DNA of 64,000 bases from positions 62,001 to 126,000 of the forward strand of contig WGMO01000017.1 of the NCBI GenBank assembly GCA_016125075.1, given 5' to 3'. Origin of the DNA: Terrimonas sp. (GTDB lineage Bacteria; Bacteroidota; Bacteroidia; Chitinophagales; Chitinophagaceae). Positions 32,552-42,532 of this stretch are shown piece by piece; within the stretch, counting starts at the first letter, position 1, and every line of letters starts with the position of its first letter. Below the pieces are notes generated by a model. It was not told where the DNA came from. It saw only the letters and a program-made list of their open reading frames with translations, and did no database searches. Both the position numbers and the translations under genes were made by a program.

Positions 32552-34699
32552 ATGAAAAAAATACTTGTACCGGTAACCGTAATGCTGGTGATGGCTTCCT
32601 GCAACAGCAATGACCAGGCTACCCGGCTTACCACTTTTAAAACCATCGAAGTGAAATACCCGGTTACAGCAAAAGATACGACAGTAGTTGATAATTATTT
32701 CGGCACCCTGGTGGCCGATCCCTACCGTTGGCTCGAGAACGATACCAGCAAGGCCACCGCTGAATGGGTCAAAGCCGAAAACGAAGTCACCCAGCAGTAT
32801 CTCTCCCAGATCCCCTTCCGTGATGCCATCAGAAAAAGATATACCGAGATCTTTGATTATGAAAAATATTCCGCCCCCTTTAAACAGGGCAAATACACTT
32901 ATTACTACCGGAACTCCGGTTTGCAGAACCAGTCGGTCCTGTATCGCGAATCAGCCGAAAACAAAGAGCCCGAAGTTTTCCTGGACCCCAATACTTTTTC
33001 AGCAGACGGAACAACCTCACTTTCGGGTATACGCTTTAGCAAAGACGGTTCCATGGCCGCTTATAATATCTCGCAGGGTGGCAGTGACTGGCAAAAACTG
33101 GTAGTCATCAATGCTGACACAAAACAACAAACCGGCGATACGCTGGATCTGAAATTCAGCGGTGCCAGTTGGAAAGGCAATGACGGCTTTTTCTACAGCA
33201 CCTATGAGAAACCCAAAGAAGGTAGTTTCCTGGCAGGTGTAACAGCCAACCATAAACTATATTATCATAAATTGGGGACCCCGCAAAGCGAGGATCAAAT
33301 GATCTTCGGCAGCGACACAAATCCTACCCGTTATATCGGGGGTGGTGTGAGTGAAGACGAAAAATGGCTTTTTATTTCAACGGCCAACGAAACATATGGC
33401 AATGGTATCTATGTTATTGACCTGTCGAAACCGGGATCACCCGCAGTACCCCTTACCCGTGATATGAAGAATACGGTTAACGTGATTGATAACGACGACC
33501 AGTATTTTTATATACAAACCGATAAAGATGCCCCTACCGGGAAAGTGGTAGCGGTGCCCATCAACAATCCCGCCCCTGAAAACTGGAAAACTATCATTGA
33601 GGCCAAACCTGAAGTGCTCAGTGCTTCAACCGGTGGCGGCTTTCTTTTTTGTTCGTATTTAAAGGATGCAATCACCAGGATCAGTCAATATGATATGACC
33701 GGTAAATTGATTCGGGATATTGAATTACCCGGTATCGGTACGGTGGGAGGTTTTGGTGCGAAAAAGGATGAAAAAGAATTATTTTACGTATTCACCTCCT
33801 ATACCACACCGCCAACCATCTATCAGTATGATATCAGTTCAGGGAAATCCTCTGTTTACAAGAAATCGGAAATGAAATTCAATCCTGATGATTACGAATC
33901 CAAACAGGTATTTTATACCTCCAAGGACGGTACTAAAATACCCATGATCATCACCTATAAGAAAGGACTTACACTGGACGGCAACAATCCCTGTATGCTT
34001 TATGGATATGGCGGGTTTGGGGTTAGCCTTCGACCCTCCTTTAACACTTCTACCGTGATATTACTGGAAAATGGAGGTGTGTATGCGGTGCCCAACCTGA
34101 GGGGTGGTGGAGAATATGGCGAAGATTGGCATAAGCAGGGTATCAAAACCAGCAAACAAAACGTGTTTGACGATTTTATCGCTGCAGCCCAATACCTGGT
34201 CGATAATAAATATACCTCCCGCAACCTCCTGGCTATTTCTGGGGGCAGCAATGGTGGTCTCCTGATCGGTGCCTGTATGACCCAACAGCCGGGTATGTGT
34301 AAAGTCGCATTCCCTGCCGTAGGGGTTATGGATATGTTGCGCTACCATAAGTTTACCGCCGGCGCCGGTTGGTCATACGACTATGGAACATCGGATGATA
34401 ATAAAGAAATGTTTGAATACCTGTATGGTTATTCACCGGTTCACAATATCAAAGTGGCTTCTTATCCTGCTACCCTGGTCACCACCGCAGATCATGACGA
34501 CCGTGTGGTTCCTGCGCATTCCTTCAAGTTTGCAGCAACGATGCAGGAAAAACAAAACGGCTCAAACCCCGTACTGATCCGCATTGAAACAAAGGCGGGA
34601 CACGGGGCTGGGAAAAGTACAAAACAGACAATCGAAGAACAGACCGACAAATGGAGTTTCATGTTCTATAATATCGGACTGGAACCCGGTTACAAATAA
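32552..34699 (+). CDS. prolyl oligopeptidase family serine peptidase, predicted lipoprotein
   Basis: The 715-residue S9A enzyme cuts short peptides after Pro. The catalytic triad is visible: Ser566 (GGSNGG), Asp650 (ADHDDRVV) and His684 (KAGHGAG). The N-terminal part (about 35-110) and the following beta-propeller (about 110-445) fit the family. The first 17 residues form a lipoprotein signal with lipobox VMASC, so the enzyme is exported and lipid-anchored, unlike the cytosolic eukaryotic form. The gene has an excellent terminator behind it. It probably feeds on peptides in the periplasm or at the surface. Confidence 0.92.
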   Translation: MKKILVPVTVMLVMASCNSNDQATRLTTFKTIEVKYPVTAKDTTVVDNYFGTLVADPYRWLENDTSKATAEWVKAENEVTQQYLSQIPFRDAIRKRYTEIFDYEKYSAPFKQGKYTYYYRNSGLQNQSVLYRESAENKEPEVFLDPNTFSADGTTSLSGIRFSKDGSMAAYNISQGGSDWQKLVVINADTKQQTGDTLDLKFSGASWKGNDGFFYSTYEKPKEGSFLAGVTANHKLYYHKLGTPQSEDQMIFGSDTNPTRYIGGGVSEDEKWLFISTANETYGNGIYVIDLSKPGSPAVPLTRDMKNTVNVIDNDDQYFYIQTDKDAPTGKVVAVPINNPAPENWKTIIEAKPEVLSASTGGGFLFCSYLKDAITRISQYDMTGKLIRDIELPGIGTVGGFGAKKDEKELFYVFTSYTTPPTIYQYDISSGKSSVYKKSEMKFNPDDYESKQVFYTSKDGTKIPMIITYKKGLTLDGNNPCMLYGYGGFGVSLRPSFNTSTVILLENGGVYAVPNLRGGGEYGEDWHKQGIKTSKQNVFDDFIAAAQYLVDNKYTSRNLLAISGGSNGGLLIGACMTQQPGMCKVAFPAVGVMDMLRYHKFTAGAGWSYDYGTSDDNKEMFEYLYGYSPVHNIKVASYPATLVTTADHDDRVVPAHSFKFAATMQEKQNGSNPVLIRIETKAGHGAGKSTKQTIEEQTDKWSFMFYNIGLEPGYK

Positions 34700-34707
34700 T
34701 AATAATT

Positions 34708-34749
34708 CGCATAAAAAAAGCCACCCTTTCTGGTGGCTTTTTTTATGCG
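34708..34749. terminator. long symmetrical intrinsic terminator
   Basis: CGCATAAAAAAAGCCACC, loop CTTTCT and GGTGGCTTTTTTTATGCG make an 18-bp perfect stem. The A- and T-runs on both sides make it work on either strand. It ends the prolyl oligopeptidase transcript. Confidence 0.9.
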
Positions 34750-34963
34750 ATAAAGTAAGGAAAGGAACCGGCCAAAGTAGTATATAGACTACAACAGAAT
34801 CGAATAACAACGAGTCCAAAATACTGATCGTTTGCTTTTTTATACCCCCCATTTAGTCTTTCTTTGTGTCAAGATTACACTTATATAAGAATCTGAATAT
34901 CAGTTTAAAAGATTTTTCCGTTGCGTGGTGCCGCTTTTAACACTCAACGCATAAATTATTCCT

Positions 34964-35404
34964 ATGACGAACCGGTCTTGTGCTAAAATTACAGCAGATG
35001 GTCAACCAGAAATTCTCCTAAAACCATTGGTTGACCATCTGCTTAATACAATTATTCCTTCCTGTGTTGCACGAAACAGTTTCCTGGTCAACGAGGTCCC
35101 ACCCCACCTGACGATTGCGGCTGAAGAAAAACTTGTGCTGCTGGTGTTGGGCAATATCCTCACAGAGGTCATTCATCTTACCGAAAATGATTGTATCAGG
35201 ATCAATGCTGCAGAAAATGGTAACCTGACCACCATACATATGAAAAATACGGCGCTGCAAGAAGAAAAATCATTTTTGATATTCCTGGAAACAATTCAAT
35301 TGATCTCAAACCGGATGGGGGGCAGGATCAGTTTTGAACAAAAGATTCAATCCGGCATCACGCTTTCAATCAGGTTTAACCTGGACAGCCAGGCTGCTGC
35401 ATAG
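34964..35404 (+). CDS. stand-alone histidine-kinase-like ATPase (HATPase_c) domain protein
   Basis: The 146-residue protein resembles the ATP-binding domain of sensor kinases: a helix with the N-box region (EEKLVLLVLGNILTEVIHLTEN, residues about 54-75), strands INAAENGNLTTIHMKN and a final IQSGITLSIRF strand. The usual dimerisation/phospho-acceptor domain and clear G1/G2 boxes are absent, so it may be inactive or act as a partner. The first 30 codons contain a perfect 16-bp inverted repeat. It could work with the genes behind it, but that is not shown. Confidence 0.6.
   Translation: MTNRSCAKITADGQPEILLKPLVDHLLNTIIPSCVARNSFLVNEVPPHLTIAAEEKLVLLVLGNILTEVIHLTENDCIRINAAENGNLTTIHMKNTALQEEKSFLIFLETIQLISNRMGGRISFEQKIQSGITLSIRFNLDSQAAA
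34993..35043. repeat. perfect 16-bp inverted repeat inside a coding region
   Basis: AGCAGATGGTCAACCA (34993-35008) is repeated inverted at 35028-35043, with 19 nt between. It begins 29 nt after the start of the HATPase-like gene and would make a strong hairpin in its mRNA. See findings. Confidence 0.85.
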
Positions 35405-35526
35405 ATGCGAATCACCGAAACCATATTTTCTTCCATATTAACGACCAACGGTTTCTGAAATACCCCGGTTCTGCCAATTAGCGAACGTATATTGTTATCT
35501 TTACCGTTCAGCAACAAGGAATTGAA

Positions 35527-36273
35527 ATGGATAATCAAAAAGATCTGCGACTGGCCGTTTTGATCGATGCAGATAATATCCCCCATCGTTTGGTCAGTGG
35601 TGTATTGGAAGAAATCGCCAAATACGGCTCCCCAACTTTCAAAAGAATTTATGGTGACTGGACCAAACCCCATGTATCGGGTTGGAAAACCGTTTTATTG
35701 GACCATGCCATCACCCCCGTTCAGCAATATAGTTATACAACCGGGAAGAACTCAACAGATTCTGCCATGATCATCGATGCCATGGACATCCTTTATACAG
35801 GCCGGGTAGATGGTTTTTGCCTTGTAACCAGCGACAGTGATTTTACAAGGCTCGCCACCCGTCTGCGGGAGGCCGGCATGAAAGTGTTTGGAATGGGAGA
35901 GCAAAAGACGCCTTCTGCTTTCAGGGCCTCCTGCGACAAATTCATTTATATCGAATTGCTGGAGCCGGAAGAACATGCCCCTAAAGCAGAAACTAAGACC
36001 CAGAAACCGAAAAAAGAAAAAACCCTGAACAAGGCCGATATGAACCTGGTACGCTTACTCACCTCCAGCATCAACGATATCGCTGATGAAAACGGGTGGG
36101 CCTACCTGGCCGAACTGGGGAACCTCCTGCTGAAAAAACGCCCGGATTTTGACCCCCGCAATTATGGGTTTGAAAAATTATTGCCCCTGATCAAAAGCCT
36201 CGGCAATTTCGAGATCGACGAAAGGGATACCAGCAGGAAAAATGTCAAATTGGTATATATAAGGGCTAAATAA
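35527..36273 (+). CDS. NYN-domain (PIN-like) protein with C-terminal LOTUS/OST-HTH domain
   Basis: The 248-residue protein has a NYN/LabA-type nuclease fold with acidic residues at Asp14 and Asp16 (LIDADN), Asp78, Asp84, Asp103 and Asp105 (TSDSDF), the metal-binding set expected of this family. A Lys-rich linker (about 148-165) leads to a winged-helix LOTUS/OST-HTH domain (about 168-246). Both parts point to binding and possibly cutting RNA in the cytoplasm. It precedes the SET gene by 36 nt on the same strand, so they may be co-transcribed. Confidence 0.85.
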   Translation: MDNQKDLRLAVLIDADNIPHRLVSGVLEEIAKYGSPTFKRIYGDWTKPHVSGWKTVLLDHAITPVQQYSYTTGKNSTDSAMIIDAMDILYTGRVDGFCLVTSDSDFTRLATRLREAGMKVFGMGEQKTPSAFRASCDKFIYIELLEPEEHAPKAETKTQKPKKEKTLNKADMNLVRLLTSSINDIADENGWAYLAELGNLLLKKRPDFDPRNYGFEKLLPLIKSLGNFEIDERDTSRKNVKLVYIRAK

Positions 36274-36309
36274 TCCCGGTAAATTGCCTTCGACTTTCAT
36301 ACAACCATC

Positions 36310-36720
36310 ATGCATAAAACAGCACTCCTCCAGGAACTGGAGAATAATACATGGGTAATGATCAAACCCTCACCGGTAGACGGCATCGGGGTATTTGCCA
36401 TCCGGAATATCCCCAGGGGGACCCGTGGGCTTTTCTCAAAAAACACGGGGGAATGGATCCCCGTTTCTAAACAGGAGGTGAGTTCGCTTCCACCCTATAT
36501 TCAAAAACTGGTCGAAAACTACTGTCTATATGATGAAACGAATTATTTTATTCCCGACTACGGATTTAAAGTAGTGGACCTGGTCAATTTTCTGAACCAT
36601 TCCCAAACTCCCAATATCATTTCCATCAATGACGGGGAAGATTTTGAGGCCATTCAAGCAATCAACGAAGGCGAAGAACTTTTTTTGGATTATGGAACCA
36701 TTGTTGACAGTGAGGAATGA
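36310..36720 (+). CDS. SET-domain protein, putative lysine methyltransferase
   Basis: The 136-residue protein is a bare SET domain: GIGVFAIRNIPRGT (25-38), then NHSQTPN (96-102) and GEELFLDYG with Tyr128, the residues that bind S-adenosylmethionine and the target lysine in eukaryotic SET enzymes. No pre-SET or post-SET zinc region is present. Bacterial members are usually small and their substrates are mostly unknown. It lies 36 nt after the NYN-LOTUS gene. Confidence 0.85.
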   Translation: MHKTALLQELENNTWVMIKPSPVDGIGVFAIRNIPRGTRGLFSKNTGEWIPVSKQEVSSLPPYIQKLVENYCLYDETNYFIPDYGFKVVDLVNFLNHSQTPNIISINDGEDFEAIQAINEGEELFLDYGTIVDSEE

Positions 36721-36869
36721 TTACTGGTCCTTTAGAATTACTCCGGTTCTACCCAATTCCTCACCTGGTCAGGGAAAGGATTTTGAGGAGCATAAGCCTG
36801 GCTATTTCCCATCTGGTTTGATAAATAATTAATTACCAATCAATTAACTCCTGTTTTCGACCCGATGGC

Positions 36870-36921
36870 ATTATAATTTCCACCCTTGCCCTGGTGGGGC
36901 AATTATTTTGTAAATTATAAT
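36870..36921. repeat. nested inverted repeat upstream of the ECF sigma gene
   Basis: ATTATAATTT (36870-36879) is matched by AAATTATAAT (36912-36921), and between them TTGCCC and GGGCAA form a smaller stem with a 5-nt loop. The element ends 56 nt before the sigma-factor start. It could be a regulator site or an RNA hairpin in the leader. Confidence 0.6.
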
Positions 36922-36977
36922 CGGAAAGGCAACCAGATTGCCCTGCTAAACGATTATTAAGTTCGAAAACAACCATT

Positions 36978-37562
36978 TTGCTATCTGCCCAGGAATTAAT
37001 AGAACATATTAAGGGTTGTACCGACAATAAGAGAGGGAGCCAAAAAATGATCTACAGCTCTTTCTATGGATATGCCATGGCCATTTGTGACCGTTATGTG
37101 AATAACCAGGATGATGCTGTTGAAATCCTCAATGACGGTTTTCTGAAAATATTTAAGGAGATGGGGAGGTTTAAACCCGCGTATGATGATGTAAACAGTT
37201 CCTTCAAAGGATGGCTAAGGAAAATCATGATCTATACGGCCATCGACCATTTCCGGAAAAATAAAAAACACGCCGTGGTGGGCGACCTTGAAACAGTAGT
37301 GTACCAGTTACCCACCTGGTCGGAAAATGCGATTGACCATATTTCCCATGAAGAGATCATCAGGTCTATCCGGACATTATCACCGGGTTACCGTACGGTC
37401 CTAAACCTTTTTATCATTGAAGGATTTACCCACGAAGAAATTGCCCAACACCTGGGAATATCGGTGGGAACATCCAAGTCGAATCTTGCCAAGGCAAGAA
37501 AACAGCTTCAAAAAATATTATTTAAAGAGAATCAAATTCAAGTAAATAAAAATGTTGTCTGA
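36978..37562 (+). CDS. ECF-type RNA polymerase sigma factor
   Basis: The 194-residue protein has sigma region 2 (YVNNQDDAVEILNDGFLKIFKEMGRF in parts) and region 4 with a helix-turn-helix (FTHEEIAQHLGISVGTSKSNLAKARK in parts), and no regions 1 or 3, as in extracytoplasmic-function sigma factors. The start is a TTG at 36978, giving MLSAQELIEHIKG. Its stop overlaps the next gene by 11 nt, which encodes the likely anti-sigma partner. Sigma factors of this group usually activate their own operon. Confidence 0.88.
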   Translation: MLSAQELIEHIKGCTDNKRGSQKMIYSSFYGYAMAICDRYVNNQDDAVEILNDGFLKIFKEMGRFKPAYDDVNSSFKGWLRKIMIYTAIDHFRKNKKHAVVGDLETVVYQLPTWSENAIDHISHEEIIRSIRTLSPGYRTVLNLFIIEGFTHEEIAQHLGISVGTSKSNLAKARKQLQKILFKENQIQVNKNVV

Positions 37563-39027
37563 AGAATTCGATAATAAGATAAAATCCGCCGCAGCGCATC
37601 ATCACCCGGATTATGAGGAAGATGCCTGGAAAAAGATGAACAAACTGTTCGGCAAACACCTTCCTGAAAAAAAGAAAAGGAGTAAAAGGTTAATTATCCT
37701 CTTGATTTTACCCTTATTCCTGGCTGGTGTAGCTTATTATGCCCTGCAATACCCGAAAGGTTTTGGGAACACAACAGTGTCAACTTCCGACAACATTGAT
37801 CCGCAAAACAATAACAAAACAAACAGTATCCCGAACCAAACAAATACATCCCCAACAGTAGAAAAGGAACCTGCCACCAAAAAAATATCAGCATCCGGCC
37901 CGTCTAGTGAAACAAAATCCCTGAAGAATACCATCCCCGTACCAGATCACAGCAACCCTTCAACTGTATCGGGTAAAGACCCGCAAGGGAGCCTTATCGT
38001 AAAAAACAACAAAGGGCTTACGGAAAAAAATAAACTAATCACACCAGATGATCATCCGGTCCTGCAGAAAATCGCTGATACAAAAGACCTGGCAACCCAT
38101 ACACAGCTATATCAAAAATCCCTATCCCAATCGGGACCAACGGGATCATTTGTCAAGAATACTCCGAAGGAAAAAGAGAAGAAAACGGGTTCTGGAACAA
38201 TCCGGTCTAAACAAATCAATAATCCTGCAACTAATAACCTGGAGCAGGACCAGGATAATTTAGAAAAATCGGAATCACCTGTTATCCGTATCCTTCAAAC
38301 GGCCATGAAAGAAAAAGCAGAAGCCATTGAATTGACCCGTACGGATATCATTCCATTCCATACTATTCATCAGGATATGGCCATTCCCGTTTTAGACAAG
38401 CAGATGAATATTGCCCGCAAAAAACGTTTCATTGCTAACATCAGCCTCGGTTTATCTGCCGGACCCGACATCAGCGCCGTGGGAATCAATGCCGGAAAAA
38501 CAGAAATAGTGCGGGGAGCAGGCCTGGGCCTTTCCCTGTCAAAAAGGGTGTCACTCAGAACAGGATTTTATACTGCCCAGAAAGTCTATACCGCCGCGGG
38601 CAGCGATTACAAGGGCAGCCCGGCTTTCATGAATTACTATCCCAACCTCAAGTCAGTTGATGCCAATTGCAAAGTGTACGAAATACCCCTGCTGCTGAAT
38701 TATAGCTTTGGCCAGAAGCGTTCACATGGCTGGTTTCTTTCTACCGGGCTCAGTTCATTGATCATGAAAAAAGAGACCTATAATTATTATTACAAACCAA
38801 ATTACAGCCCTGATTATATCTACTATAAAAAAACATTCAACAATAAAAACAAACATATTTTATCCACCCTCGCCTTATCAGGGGGATACCAGGTTCAACT
38901 CAATTCATCCCTGTCATTTGTAGCGGAACCTTATCTGAGAATTCCGCTAACGGGTATTGGTGAAGGAAAATTACACCTTAACAGTGCAGGCATGCTGTTC
39001 ACATTTCTCGTAAGACCCTTCAAATAA
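37552..39027 (+). CDS. possible anti-sigma factor fused to an outer-membrane beta-barrel
   Basis: The 491-residue protein has, in order: a cytoplasmic N-terminus of about 46 residues with a WKKMNKLFGKHLPEKK helix; one membrane segment (about 47-65, LIILLILPLFLAGVAYYAL); a 220-residue linker rich in Asn, Ser, Thr, Pro and Lys; and from about 293 a run of amphipathic strands (LGLSAGPD, VSLRTGFYT, YEIPLLLNYSFG, SFVAEPYLRIPL) ending LLFTFLVRPFK, with a Phe near the end. That is the pattern of an outer-membrane beta-barrel. It overlaps the ECF sigma gene by 11 nt. I infer an anti-sigma protein that spans the periplasm; topology is not proven. Confidence 0.65.
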   Translation: MLSEEFDNKIKSAAAHHHPDYEEDAWKKMNKLFGKHLPEKKKRSKRLIILLILPLFLAGVAYYALQYPKGFGNTTVSTSDNIDPQNNNKTNSIPNQTNTSPTVEKEPATKKISASGPSSETKSLKNTIPVPDHSNPSTVSGKDPQGSLIVKNNKGLTEKNKLITPDDHPVLQKIADTKDLATHTQLYQKSLSQSGPTGSFVKNTPKEKEKKTGSGTIRSKQINNPATNNLEQDQDNLEKSESPVIRILQTAMKEKAEAIELTRTDIIPFHTIHQDMAIPVLDKQMNIARKKRFIANISLGLSAGPDISAVGINAGKTEIVRGAGLGLSLSKRVSLRTGFYTAQKVYTAAGSDYKGSPAFMNYYPNLKSVDANCKVYEIPLLLNYSFGQKRSHGWFLSTGLSSLIMKKETYNYYYKPNYSPDYIYYKKTFNNKNKHILSTLALSGGYQVQLNSSLSFVAEPYLRIPLTGIGEGKLHLNSAGMLFTFLVRPFK

Positions 39028-39093
39028 ATAAGCGGAGCTATAATCGCATTGCGCCTGCCATTCAGGAAAGCCGAAAGGTGATACGCCACCGGA

Positions 39094-40221
39094 TCAAACC
39101 AGCGTAGTGAGTTTTTCAACTACCAGGTCAACTTCTTCTTTGGTATTGAATTTCGAAAAAGAAAAACGGACAGCGAGTCGGTTAGGGTCATTGCTGATAG
39201 CCCTGATGACATGAGACCCCTGGTCGGCACCACTGGTGCAGGCACTCCCGCCAGAGGCACAAATATTATTGATATCGAGGTTAAACAGCAACATTTCCGA
39301 TTTCTCGGATTTGGGAAAGGATACATTCAATACTGTATACAAACTCTTTCCCCGGTAATCGCCATTGAAATCCAGTGCAGGTATCGCTGCATTGAGCCGT
39401 TCTGCCATATAGGATTTCAGCGCCTGGATATGCCTGCTTTCTTCTTCCATATGCAATGAAGCCAGTTCCAAAGCTTTGGCAAAACCCACTATACCATAAA
39501 CGTTTTCTGTACCGGCCCGCATATTCCGCTCCTGGACACCCCCATAAATTAAGGGTTTTATTTTTACGTTTTCATTGACATATAAAATACCCACACCCTT
39601 GGGCCCATGAAACTTATGCCCTGAGCCAGATATGAAATGTACCGGGGTCTTCCTGAGGTCAAGGGCATAATGTCCGACTGTCTGAACACAATCAGAATGA
39701 AAAATGGCATTATATTTCTTACACAAGGCCCCCACTGCATCAATATCAAGGATATTACCGATCTCATTATTGGCATGCATCAGGGTAACCAGGCATCGCT
39801 TTTCAGCAGCAGCCAGCTGTCTTTCAAGGTCCTGTATATCGATATGGCCGTCGGGGAGCAATTTTACAAAACTGCTGGTTACCTGGTCCTCGTGGTCAAA
39901 ATGCTCAACAGTATGCAGAACGGCATGGTGTTCCACCGGAGAAGTAATGATATGCCTGCAACCCAGGTCCCGGATCGATGCCGCGATGGCGGTATTATTG
40001 CTTTCCGTCCCGCCACTGGTAAAAAATATTTCCGCGGGATGAGCATTCAATATCCTGGCTACTGTTTTCCTTGCATTTTCAACAGCCATCCTTGTTTCCC
40101 TTCCATAAGAATAAATGGATGAAGGGTTTCCAAAATGGGTGCTCAGATAAGGTAACATGGCCTGGAGAACTGCTTCATCAAGGGCCGTGGTGGCCGCATT
40201 ATCAAAATAGATCCTGTTCAT
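39094..40221 (-). CDS. cysteine desulfurase, IscS/NifS family
   Basis: This pyridoxal-phosphate enzyme takes sulfur from cysteine for iron-sulfur cluster and thiocofactor synthesis. The 375-residue protein has the cofactor Lys203 (SGSGHKFHGPKG), the cofactor-stacking block TSGGTESNN (68-76) and the persulfide Cys328 within SACTSGADQGSHV. The loop carrying Cys328 is of the long, class I type. It lies 93 nt after glmM and has a TATCTTTG box of its own. No iscU or suf genes are close. Confidence 0.92.
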   Translation of the reverse strand: MNRIYFDNAATTALDEAVLQAMLPYLSTHFGNPSSIYSYGRETRMAVENARKTVARILNAHPAEIFFTSGGTESNNTAIAASIRDLGCRHIITSPVEHHAVLHTVEHFDHEDQVTSSFVKLLPDGHIDIQDLERQLAAAEKRCLVTLMHANNEIGNILDIDAVGALCKKYNAIFHSDCVQTVGHYALDLRKTPVHFISGSGHKFHGPKGVGILYVNENVKIKPLIYGGVQERNMRAGTENVYGIVGFAKALELASLHMEEESRHIQALKSYMAERLNAAIPALDFNGDYRGKSLYTVLNVSFPKSEKSEMLLFNLDINNICASGGSACTSGADQGSHVIRAISNDPNRLAVRFSFSKFNTKEEVDLVVEKLTTLV

Positions 40222-40241
40222 AAATTCCCGGTTAAAAATGG

Positions 40242-40249
40242 CAAAGATA
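40242..40249 (-). promoter_or_regulatory. candidate -7 promoter box of the cysteine desulfurase gene (TATCTTTG)
   Basis: On the minus strand TATCTTTG fits TAnnTTTG and lies 20 nt before the ATG at 40221. The -33 position reads TTTTT rather than TTTG. Confidence 0.5.
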
Positions 40250-40314
40250 AAATTAAGCAGCTGATTATTGCTAAAAACCCACTTATCCTGCGACCCTGCA
40301 AAGCGGGGTACCGC

Positions 40315-41703
40315 CTACATAAATTCACGGATATCGCTGATAAGACGCTTAGCAATGGCGTTAGCCTTTGATTCATAGTCGCTTTCTGCATAAATCCGGA
40401 TAATCGGTTCTGTATTGGAACTGCGCAGGTGAACCCAGTCATTGTCAAATTCTATTTTCAGGCCATCCTCCGTATTGAGCGGCTGGGCCTTATATCTTTC
40501 CCGGATCCTGGCAAATACCTGCTCAAGGTCAGTTCCCTTATCGAGTTCGATCTTATTTTTTGAGATAAAATAATCGGGATAAGATTTTCTTAATTCCTTA
40601 ATGCTGCTCTTTGTCCTGGCCAGCTGACTTAAAAATAAGGCAATCCCGATTAGTGCATCGCGGCCATAGTGGAAATCGGGAACGATGATACCGCCATTCC
40701 CTTCCCCGCCGATCACCGCTTCCGTTTCCTTCATCTTATTCACTACATTCACTTCCCCAACAGCCGAAGGAAAATACTGCCCTCCATGCTTCAGCGTAAT
40801 CTCCTTCAATGACTTTGTACTGCTCATGTTGCTGACTGTATTTCCCACTTTCCGGCCCAATATATAATCCGCAACTGCCACCAGCGTATATTCTTCACCA
40901 AACATGGTTCCGTCTTCACACACAAAACAAAGCCGGTCAACATCCGGGTCAACTGCAATGCCCAGGTCCGCTTTATGTTTCACAACTGCATTGCTCAAAC
41001 CCGAAAGATGTTCGGGCAGCGGTTCGGGGTTATGGGCAAATTGCCCGTTGATGTCTTCATTCAGAACAATGATATCCTTTATGCCCAGTGCTTCCAGCAG
41101 GGCGGGTACAAAAAGGGCCCCGGTAGAATTGATAGCATCGACGACCACACGGAATTGTCTGCCGCCAATAGCATTACGGTCAACAAGCGGATAGGCCAGG
41201 ATGGCGTCAATATGTTTTTGAAGATAGCTGTCATCTTGCAGAATACTACCCAGTTTGTCAACACTGCTAAAAGTAAAATCCTCGCTGGCAGCTTTTTCAA
41301 GCAGTTTTTTACCCAATTCTCCGCTAATGAACTCTCCGTCGTGATTCAGCAACTTGAGGGCATTCCAATCTTTTGGGTTATGGCTTGCCGTGATGATAAT
41401 GCCCCCTATGGCATCCTCCATCCTGACCGCCACTTCAACAGTGGGTGTCGTGGAAAGACCAAGATCAATAACCCGGAAGCCCATCCCCACCAGGGTTGCC
41501 GCAACAAGGTCCCTGACCATCGCGCCACTGATCCTCCCGTCTCTTCCGATCACCACTTTAAGCGTCCTCCCTTTTTGGTTATCCTGCAGGATACTTCCAT
41601 ATGCAGCTGTAAACCTGACGATATCCAGGGGTGAAAGTGTATCACCGGGTATTCCACCAATTGTTCCCCGAATGCCTGAGATACTTTTTATTAATGCCAC
41701 CAT
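40315..41703 (-). CDS. glmM: phosphoglucosamine mutase family protein
   Basis: GlmM turns glucosamine-6-phosphate into glucosamine-1-phosphate, a step towards UDP-GlcNAc for peptidoglycan and lipopolysaccharide. The 462-residue protein has the phospho-serine loop TASHNP (Ser107), the Mg-binding AVDPDVDRLCF and the sugar loop GGEGNGGI, with the C-terminal SNTEPIIRIYAES phosphate-binding block. Many Bacteroidota use this single alpha-D-phosphohexomutase type; a role in phosphomannomutase activity cannot be ruled out. Confidence 0.88.
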   Translation of the reverse strand: MVALIKSISGIRGTIGGIPGDTLSPLDIVRFTAAYGSILQDNQKGRTLKVVIGRDGRISGAMVRDLVAATLVGMGFRVIDLGLSTTPTVEVAVRMEDAIGGIIITASHNPKDWNALKLLNHDGEFISGELGKKLLEKAASEDFTFSSVDKLGSILQDDSYLQKHIDAILAYPLVDRNAIGGRQFRVVVDAINSTGALFVPALLEALGIKDIIVLNEDINGQFAHNPEPLPEHLSGLSNAVVKHKADLGIAVDPDVDRLCFVCEDGTMFGEEYTLVAVADYILGRKVGNTVSNMSSTKSLKEITLKHGGQYFPSAVGEVNVVNKMKETEAVIGGEGNGGIIVPDFHYGRDALIGIALFLSQLARTKSSIKELRKSYPDYFISKNKIELDKGTDLEQVFARIRERYKAQPLNTEDGLKIEFDNDWVHLRSSNTEPIIRIYAESDYESKANAIAKRLISDIREFM

Positions 41704-41760
41704 TTAAATTTTAGAATGGCAAAAATACAGCATTGGCTGCCATAAACATTTCGTAAGCTC

Positions 41761-41768
41761 TATATTTG
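41761..41768 (+). promoter_or_regulatory. candidate -7 promoter box (TATATTTG)
   Basis: TATATTTG fits TAnnTTTG and ends 17 nt before the methyltransferase ATG. No TTTG is seen at -33; TTTC is present about 19 nt upstream. Confidence 0.4.
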
Positions 41769-41785
41769 CTTTCTAAACAGGCGGG

Positions 41786-42532
41786 ATGGCAGACAAAACA
41801 TGGTATGAAAACTGGTTCAATTCCCCGTTTTATCACAAACTATATTTTCAACGTGACGAAAAAGAAGCCCGTTTCTTCCTGGCAGCACTCATCGATTATT
41901 TAAAGCCCTTTCCGGGAAGCAATTGGCTGGATGTAGCCTGTGGAAGAGGCCGTCTCAGCAGGATACTGGCAGAAAATGGTTTTGAAGTTACAGGTTTTGA
42001 CATTGCACCCCGCAGTATCGAATATGCCCGGCCATTCGAAAATAAGCATCTCTCCTTTTTCCAGCATGATATGCGCCGGTCTTTCCGGATCAATTACTAT
42101 GACTTTGTGATAAATTTTTTTACAAGTTTCGGGTATTTTAATACCCGGCGGGAGCATGATGATGCAATCCGAACGATGGCGGTCAGCCTCAAAAAAGGGG
42201 GAATCCTGATCATCGATTACCTCAACACTCATTATGTCGAGGATCATCTTGTACGGGAAGACCATCTCTCCATTGAAGGAACAAGCTTTGACATTCACCG
42301 GTGGGAAGATGAACATTTTTTTTATAAAAAGATCCGGATCAACGATCCTTCCCTGGCAGCTGCAGCAACACATACGGAGAAGATCGCCAAGTTCAGCCTG
42401 GGTGATTTCACAGACATGCTCTCCTTCCAGCATTTGCAGGTTCGGGCTGTTTTTGGCGACTATGCACTCGGGGCTTATGATACCCGGAATACACCCCGTC
42501 TTATCATTATTGCCGATAAAGGGAAAAGCTAA
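41786..42532 (+). CDS. class I SAM-dependent methyltransferase
   Basis: The 248-residue cytoplasmic protein has the nucleotide-binding motif LDVACGRGRLS (48-58) and the acidic residue Asp72 (VTGFDIAP), as in small-molecule methyltransferases. The C-terminal part is likely to bind the acceptor, which cannot be identified. Its last codons overlap by 4 nt the end of the convergent LtaS-like gene. Confidence 0.82.
   Translation: MADKTWYENWFNSPFYHKLYFQRDEKEARFFLAALIDYLKPFPGSNWLDVACGRGRLSRILAENGFEVTGFDIAPRSIEYARPFENKHLSFFQHDMRRSFRINYYDFVINFFTSFGYFNTRREHDDAIRTMAVSLKKGGILIIDYLNTHYVEDHLVREDHLSIEGTSFDIHRWEDEHFFYKKIRINDPSLAAAATHTEKIAKFSLGDFTDMLSFQHLQVRAVFGDYALGAYDTRNTPRLIIIADKGKS

Follow-up and report, generated by a model that had tools for sequence, protein, structure and literature searches.

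The window analysed here is the whole stretch of 64,000 nucleotides from Terrimonas sp., and it carries on its forward strand a gene for an ECF sigma factor that is overlapped by 11 nt by a second, longer gene (open reading frames 36978-37562 and 37552-39027). This arrangement had been claimed in an earlier note made from the sequence alone, and the observation is confirmed as real. The features of the locus are as follows.

36928-36955, + strand: putative promoter element of ECF type (GGCAACC-N16-CGATT), lying 50 nt upstream of the start codon of the sigma gene, recognized by its conservation over 47 loci
36978-37562, + strand: ECF sigma factor gene, 194 aa, TTG start, with Sigma70_r2 and Sigma70_r4_2 above the Pfam cut-off
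37552-37562, + strand: 11-nt overlap of the sigma gene and the partner gene on their common strand, read from the sequence
37552-39027, + strand: partner gene, 491 aa, ATG start, predicted Dma/Reo-type anti-sigma factor (AlphaFold2 model; conserved linkage to the sigma gene)
37552-37683, + strand: partner residues 1-44, presumed cytoplasmic sigma-binding part with helices 4-15 and 23-35 (AlphaFold2 model, alignment)
37684-37749, + strand: residues 45-66, predicted inner-membrane helix (AlphaFold2 model, sequence analysis)
37750-38427, + strand: residues 67-292, predicted disordered tether of 226 residues (pLDDT mostly 40-55, composition, conservation)
38440-39012, + strand: residues 297-487, predicted eight-stranded barrel of outer-membrane type (pLDDT 92-98; structural matches to NspA and OmpA)

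The sigma protein matches Sigma70_r2 (E 1e-9) and Sigma70_r4_2 (E 6.9e-16) in Pfam, both above cut-off, and the NCBIfam model TIGR02937 sigma70-ECF at 85.3 bits (cut-off 42.9). With 73 bits, it lies below the cut-off of 126.4 bits of TIGR02985 Sig70_bacteroi1. At the aligned position of its start codon, TTG is found in 34 of 47 loci, GTG in 3, and ATG never; the remaining 10 have no start codon at that position, so that alignment of the proteins does not hold there. The weak TTG start may be kept on purpose. Of the three neighbours of the pair that were tested, one is a class-V aminotransferase, one a SET-domain protein (36310-36720), and one, adjoining the latter, combines an NYN nuclease domain with an OST-HTH/LOTUS domain (35527-36273).

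Within its family, 77 of 147 genomes encode relatives of the partner protein; a profile detects relatives in 48 of 247 genomes from the whole phylum. The pair is found in records of Terrimonas, Ferruginibacter, Ginsengibacter, Flavihumibacter, and Hymenobacter, among others. In a first set of loci, comprising the window's own genome and 29 relatives, a sigma gene lies immediately 5' of the partner gene and on the same strand in all 30. The same holds for 46 of 53 loci in a second set, which has some genomes in common with the first. Six of the seven exceptions have a partner open reading frame starting less than 200 nt from a contig end, and the seventh (L054) is a fusion. The adjacency of the two genes is thus beyond chance. 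As for the fusion, which comes from a metagenome record (L054, 2591-4087), an in-frame deletion has removed sigma region 4 and the anti-sigma part, so that sigma region 2 runs on into the partner's tether and barrel. The promoter element is retained, and the fusion is possibly an assembly artefact.

The 491-aa partner protein has no match in NCBIfam and a single one in Pfam, to OMP_b-brl_2 over residues 325-450 (E 1.9e-4), where its 22 bits fall short of the cut-off of 27. Its AlphaFold2 model, built on an alignment of 46 sequences (A3), has an overall pTM of 0.50 and divides the chain into four parts. The earlier note had placed a cytoplasmic part at residues 1-46, followed by a linker of about 220 residues and a C-terminal barrel, and these figures prove correct within a few residues. 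The two N-terminal helices (4-15 and 23-35) are conserved ahead of the membrane helix, W26 being invariant in the 46-protein alignment, and are modelled with moderate confidence (pLDDT just 65-73). Residues 1-44 would bind the sigma factor, by analogy with proteins of the same architecture, which act as anti-sigma factors in genetic tests according to the published accounts (PMC9308784, PMC13088901, PMC13114119). Before the membrane helix at 45-66 stands the stretch KKKRSKR, the pattern expected of an anchor whose N-terminus faces inwards.

The tether that follows is composed to 73% of P, S, T, N, Q, E, K, D, G, and R, and its conservation is 0.25, as compared with 0.58 for residues 1-40 and 0.55 for the barrel. 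Its equivalent is 135 to 267 residues long across the 46 proteins. Many anti-sigma factors work by proteolysis, and a tether so long, disordered, and unconserved could be cut. The partner might then be cleaved in normal cells, so that barrel and anti-sigma part are two proteins that signal by controlled proteolysis and not as one chain. This alternative appears unlikely, since all full-length relatives among the 46 aligned proteins keep the fusion, none having fewer than 135 residues in place of the tether, and since the related protein Reo is described as reaching from the cytoplasm to the surface (PMC13114119). In the preferred reading, the signal would run along a single partner chain.

The structure prediction proposed in the earlier note was run with AlphaFold2 and returned the C-terminal barrel at pLDDT 92-98. 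According to Foldseek, its best solved structure is OmpA (E 4.6e-8). A second structure comparison has in its top row a porin from the Dot/Icm machinery of Legionella (Z 18.8, rmsd 5.4). It is followed by NspA (Z 18.6, with an rmsd of 2.8 over 153 residues), a model of OmpA (Z 18.4), OmpA itself (Z 17.4, rmsd 3.3 over 163 residues), OprF (17.2), OmpW (16.7), and a transmembrane barrel obtained by design (16.3). Barrels of soluble proteins also match, at lower Z: a designed retro-aldolase (13.1), PsbO (10.3), DynF (9.9), and a YceI-like protein (9.6). These matches, together with a hydrophobic alternation that is significant in just 2 of the 8 strands, would suit a barrel that is soluble in the periplasm, the partner then being an anti-sigma factor whose long sensor part stays periplasmic and stops short of the outer membrane. 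Such a protein is nevertheless very unlikely here, given that the top matches are transmembrane (from NspA to the designed barrel) and that the sole Pfam match, below its cut-off, is to an outer-membrane barrel family, whose cut-off is passed by the NigD-linked relatives described below and by the f5 relatives. A soluble C-terminal domain, the outcome that the earlier note had named as contrary to its idea, is thus disfavoured, the best structural matches being transmembrane barrels. In the preferred reading, the barrel would lie in the outer membrane. The note's envelope-spanning claim accordingly stands, by prediction, as regards architecture (OmpA-type barrel, membrane helix with the N-terminus inside, long disordered tether). 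The novelty that it implied does not, the class having already been published as Reo and Dma; the idea was sound and not new.

ECF promoters in general carry AAC in the -35 region and CG in the -10 region at a fixed spacing. The element at 36928-36955 is the sole match to its pattern in the 64-kb window, where 0.28 matches are expected and 27 of 100 shuffled sequences contain at least one. A lone match of this kind is not significant by itself, and its weight lies in its conservation. Indeed, 45 of 47 loci, the window included, have [A/G]GCAAC-N17-CG[A/T] 5' of the sigma gene, with identical internal spacing in all 45, and any other spacer than 17 occurs 1 to 3 times each. With the spacer relaxed to [A/G]GCAAC-N15-18-CG[A/T], a match stands ahead of the sigma gene at 44 of 46 loci, as compared with 311 of 10600 random 260-nt stretches from the same loci (2.9%). 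The sigma gene is therefore probably autoregulated through the 36928 element.

Across 0.92 Mb of relative loci, the element has 85 matches. Of these, 41 stand before a sigma gene and 35 before another gene on the same strand, at most 260 nt upstream of it, among them the promoter of the L054 fusion; of the remainder, 3 fall within genes and 6 at other places. Targets were counted among genes at most 6 kb from the pair in the 41 loci where a sigma gene is present and the sequence extends 3 kb or more downstream. There, the element stands before 30 of 33 sigma genes called by the script, 18 of 27 genes for cytochrome-like lipoproteins, 9 of 22 DUF5777 genes, and 4 of 395 other genes. It precedes none of the 41 partner genes, and near the pair in these loci no element of their own was found before YceI-like (0 of 9, named by inspection) or AhpC/TSA (Bcp) genes (0 of 7). 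The reversed pattern, used as a control on the same loci, stands before 1 of the 395 other genes, 2 partner genes, 1 YceI-like gene, and no others.

A cytochrome-like lipoprotein gene lies near the pair in 25 of the 41 loci and a DUF5777 gene in 22. Two such lipoproteins carry SprB repeats and, at the C-terminus, a match to Cytochrome_CBB3 that does not reach the cut-off (E 4e-4 and 9e-4). Another comprises a Cytochrome_CBB3 domain alone, just above cut-off (3.2e-6), and many have CxxCH motifs. For DUF5777, no mention was found in the literature searched. In L035 (12847) and L050 (13261), the element stands just before similar membrane-protein genes of about 550-570 aa that have no Pfam match and look like polysaccharide polymerases. 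In L098 and L099, from two genera (G051 and G125), it precedes genes for secreted proteins with similar starts (HITGGE and HTKGGW). In two other families of the phylum (L326 and L327), small lipoproteins with CxxCH-type motifs adjoin the pair, as do YceI-like or plastocyanin-like genes, so named by inspection.

In 17 genomes, the strict form GGCAACY-N16-CGATW has 77 matches, as compared with 20 for the reversed pattern. Among 74 distinct matched sequences that were examined, drawn in part from other scans, 29 were classed as inside open reading frames of at least 180 aa and 45 as outside. Downstream of those outside, genes for glutathione peroxidase (4 genomes) and for DUF5777 proteins (5 genomes) are found repeatedly, one member of each family being confirmed by Pfam. 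In the reverse direction, genomes with the pair carry the element at 4 of 20 DUF5777 loci, 6 of 17 glutathione peroxidase loci, and 5 of 22 lipoprotein loci (15 of 59 in total), and genomes with no detected pair at 0 of 10, 0 of 13, and 0 of 8, respectively (0 of 31), in a comparison of genomes unmatched for relatedness and a count that omits some family copies, including three element-bearing DUF5777 copies.

The window's own genome contains 14 matches to the strict element, as compared with 11 for the reversed form, and 10 of the 14 lie within open reading frames. A large regulon is thus unsupported in this genome, and no broad one is claimed. No cytochrome-like or DUF5777 gene lies beside the window's pair; the SprB-repeat lipoprotein that accompanies the pair in relatives matches just two long open reading frames in this genome, of 1025 and 1492 aa. 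The best candidate for another target is a gene for a 127-aa lipoprotein on a different contig (C8), with the element 58 nt before its start. It has 8 close orthologues, itself included (E < 1e-20), of which 5 carry the element, one of them in the second genome of the genus. The protein contains CX4CH and has no Pfam match, so that a cytochrome reading rests on its likeness to relatives. Two further intergenic matches, neither claimed as a target, lie 71 nt before a gene whose product has a type IX secretion domain of the CHU_C family (L086/L175) and 186 nt before one for a carboxypeptidase-regulatory-like protein (L097, by inspection).

The near-equality of strict and control counts in this genome, and the fact that the element was derived purely from sequence, would fit a different assignment, in which GGCAACC-N16-CGATT serves another regulator or sigma factor and the common targets are not the regulon of this one. 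This is judged quite unlikely. The element has the general ECF form, its most constant site is before this very sigma gene, Hymenobacter included (L068, L073, L077-L080), and it is absent from the 31 target-type loci of genomes with no detected pair, as compared with its presence at 15 of 59 where the pair occurs.

Taken together, the pair is probably an autoregulated sigma/anti-sigma switch of the Reo-Dma kind, in which an outer-membrane sensor would control envelope lipoproteins. This reading draws on the conserved pair, the modelled helix, tether, and barrel, the published anti-sigma factors of the same architecture, the conserved element, and the enrichment of targets behind it. Counted against it are the pLDDT of 65-73 for the N-terminal helices, the pTM of 0.50, alternation in 2 of 8 strands, and the soluble-barrel matches, as well as the own-genome count of 14 to 11, cytochrome-like and DUF5777 genes that do not lie beside the pair, and the lack of a Pfam match for the 127-aa lipoprotein.

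The switch would work as follows. With the N-terminus of the partner in the cytoplasm, its two short helices would hold the sigma factor; one helix would cross the inner membrane, the disordered tether of about 225 residues would span the periplasm, and the OmpA-type barrel would sit in the outer membrane. The sigma factor would be freed when the surface or outer membrane is disturbed, by barrel damage, misassembly, or a ligand. One guess is that barrel tension or misassembly, perhaps followed by proteolysis, brings about this release. The freed sigma factor would read GGCAACC-N16-CGATT promoters, namely that of its own gene, in relatives those of the cytochrome-like lipoprotein, the DUF5777 barrel protein, and sometimes glutathione peroxidase, and in the window's genome that of the 127-aa lipoprotein gene on the other contig. 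The purpose would be upkeep of the outer membrane or redox defence. A bolder and rather doubtful extension of the switch is that this clade of Dma-like proteins is a dedicated sensor for the redox state or integrity of an outer-membrane module formed by the cytochrome-like lipoprotein, the DUF5777 barrel, and the YceI-like protein. The barrel would monitor this module and, through one chain and the sigma factor, call for more of it; the small CxxCH lipoproteins beside the pair in two other families are added to this picture.

Published studies of envelope-spanning anti-sigma factors concern, as far as their available parts go, gut Bacteroidales. Here, pairs are found by sequence in another family (77 of 147 genomes) and in Hymenobacter, and envelope-spanning signalling is linked to cytochrome-like surface lipoproteins, distinct probable targets that make its role testable. 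The sharp promoter-like element and the recurrent targets offer reporters and genes with which to study how the signal of a barrel crosses both membranes.

In FecI/FecR systems, an event at the outer membrane controls an ECF sigma factor via a membrane anti-sigma factor, with FecR as a protein distinct from the TonB-dependent receptor. The window's pair would likewise place an ECF sigma factor under outer-membrane control through a membrane anti-sigma factor, but with a single chain in place of receptor and FecR. A FecI/FecR reading of the pair was rejected, as the partner has no FecR domain match in Pfam at E up to 1, nor in NCBIfam. Among the open reading frames listed from 34500 to 42000, none of the three tested neighbours is a TonB-dependent receptor, the others being judged by look.

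Among the closest published systems are Dma1/Das1 and Dma2/Das2 of Bacteroides thetaiotaomicron. Dma proteins are described as starting with an anti-sigma domain, which is joined through a single membrane helix and a long disordered tether to a barrel at the C-terminus. Their genes adjoin an ECF21 sigma gene and are confined to Bacteroidota, Dma1 has NigD1 among its targets and Dma2 polysaccharide loci, and loss of dma2 increases vesiculation in a Das2-dependent manner (PMC13088901). The window's partner shares this predicted architecture, the adjoining sigma gene, and the phylum. NigD is found in 2 of 247 genomes, the window's genome not among them, and in both a sigma/Dma-like pair is divergent from nigD (L322 and L323). 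Over 174 aa, the NigD-linked sigma factor and that of the window share 33% identity (BLASTP), and the two NigD-linked partner proteins show a weak, distant similarity to A3 (Prob 71.5, E 3.6e-5, 114 barrel columns); pairs of another family (L324 and L325) align better with the partner (Prob 99.1, E 6e-19).

A similar pair, EcfO-Reo, is described in Bacteroides fragilis and Phocaeicola vulgatus. According to its accounts, Reo has a predicted outer-membrane barrel, antibacterial toxins induce the P. vulgatus pair, EcfO-Reo responds to envelope or oxygen stress, and NigD lipoproteins are among its targets (PMC9308784, PMC13114119); the EcfO response of P. vulgatus also leads to a longer O-antigen (PMC9308784). 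A cytoplasm-to-surface anti-sigma factor, lipoprotein targets, and induction of the sigma gene itself would be common to EcfO-Reo and the window's pair. Further literature searches gave, by title and abstract, nothing concerning the present system. Judged by model and analogy, the window's pair is a member of the Dma/Reo type outside the Bacteroides lineage. It would differ from both published systems in its targets: in place of NigD and, for EcfO-Reo, the longer O-antigen, the element here stands before genes for cytochrome-like lipoproteins, DUF5777 proteins, and some peroxidases, and what appears to be new is this putative promoter element and its candidate target set.
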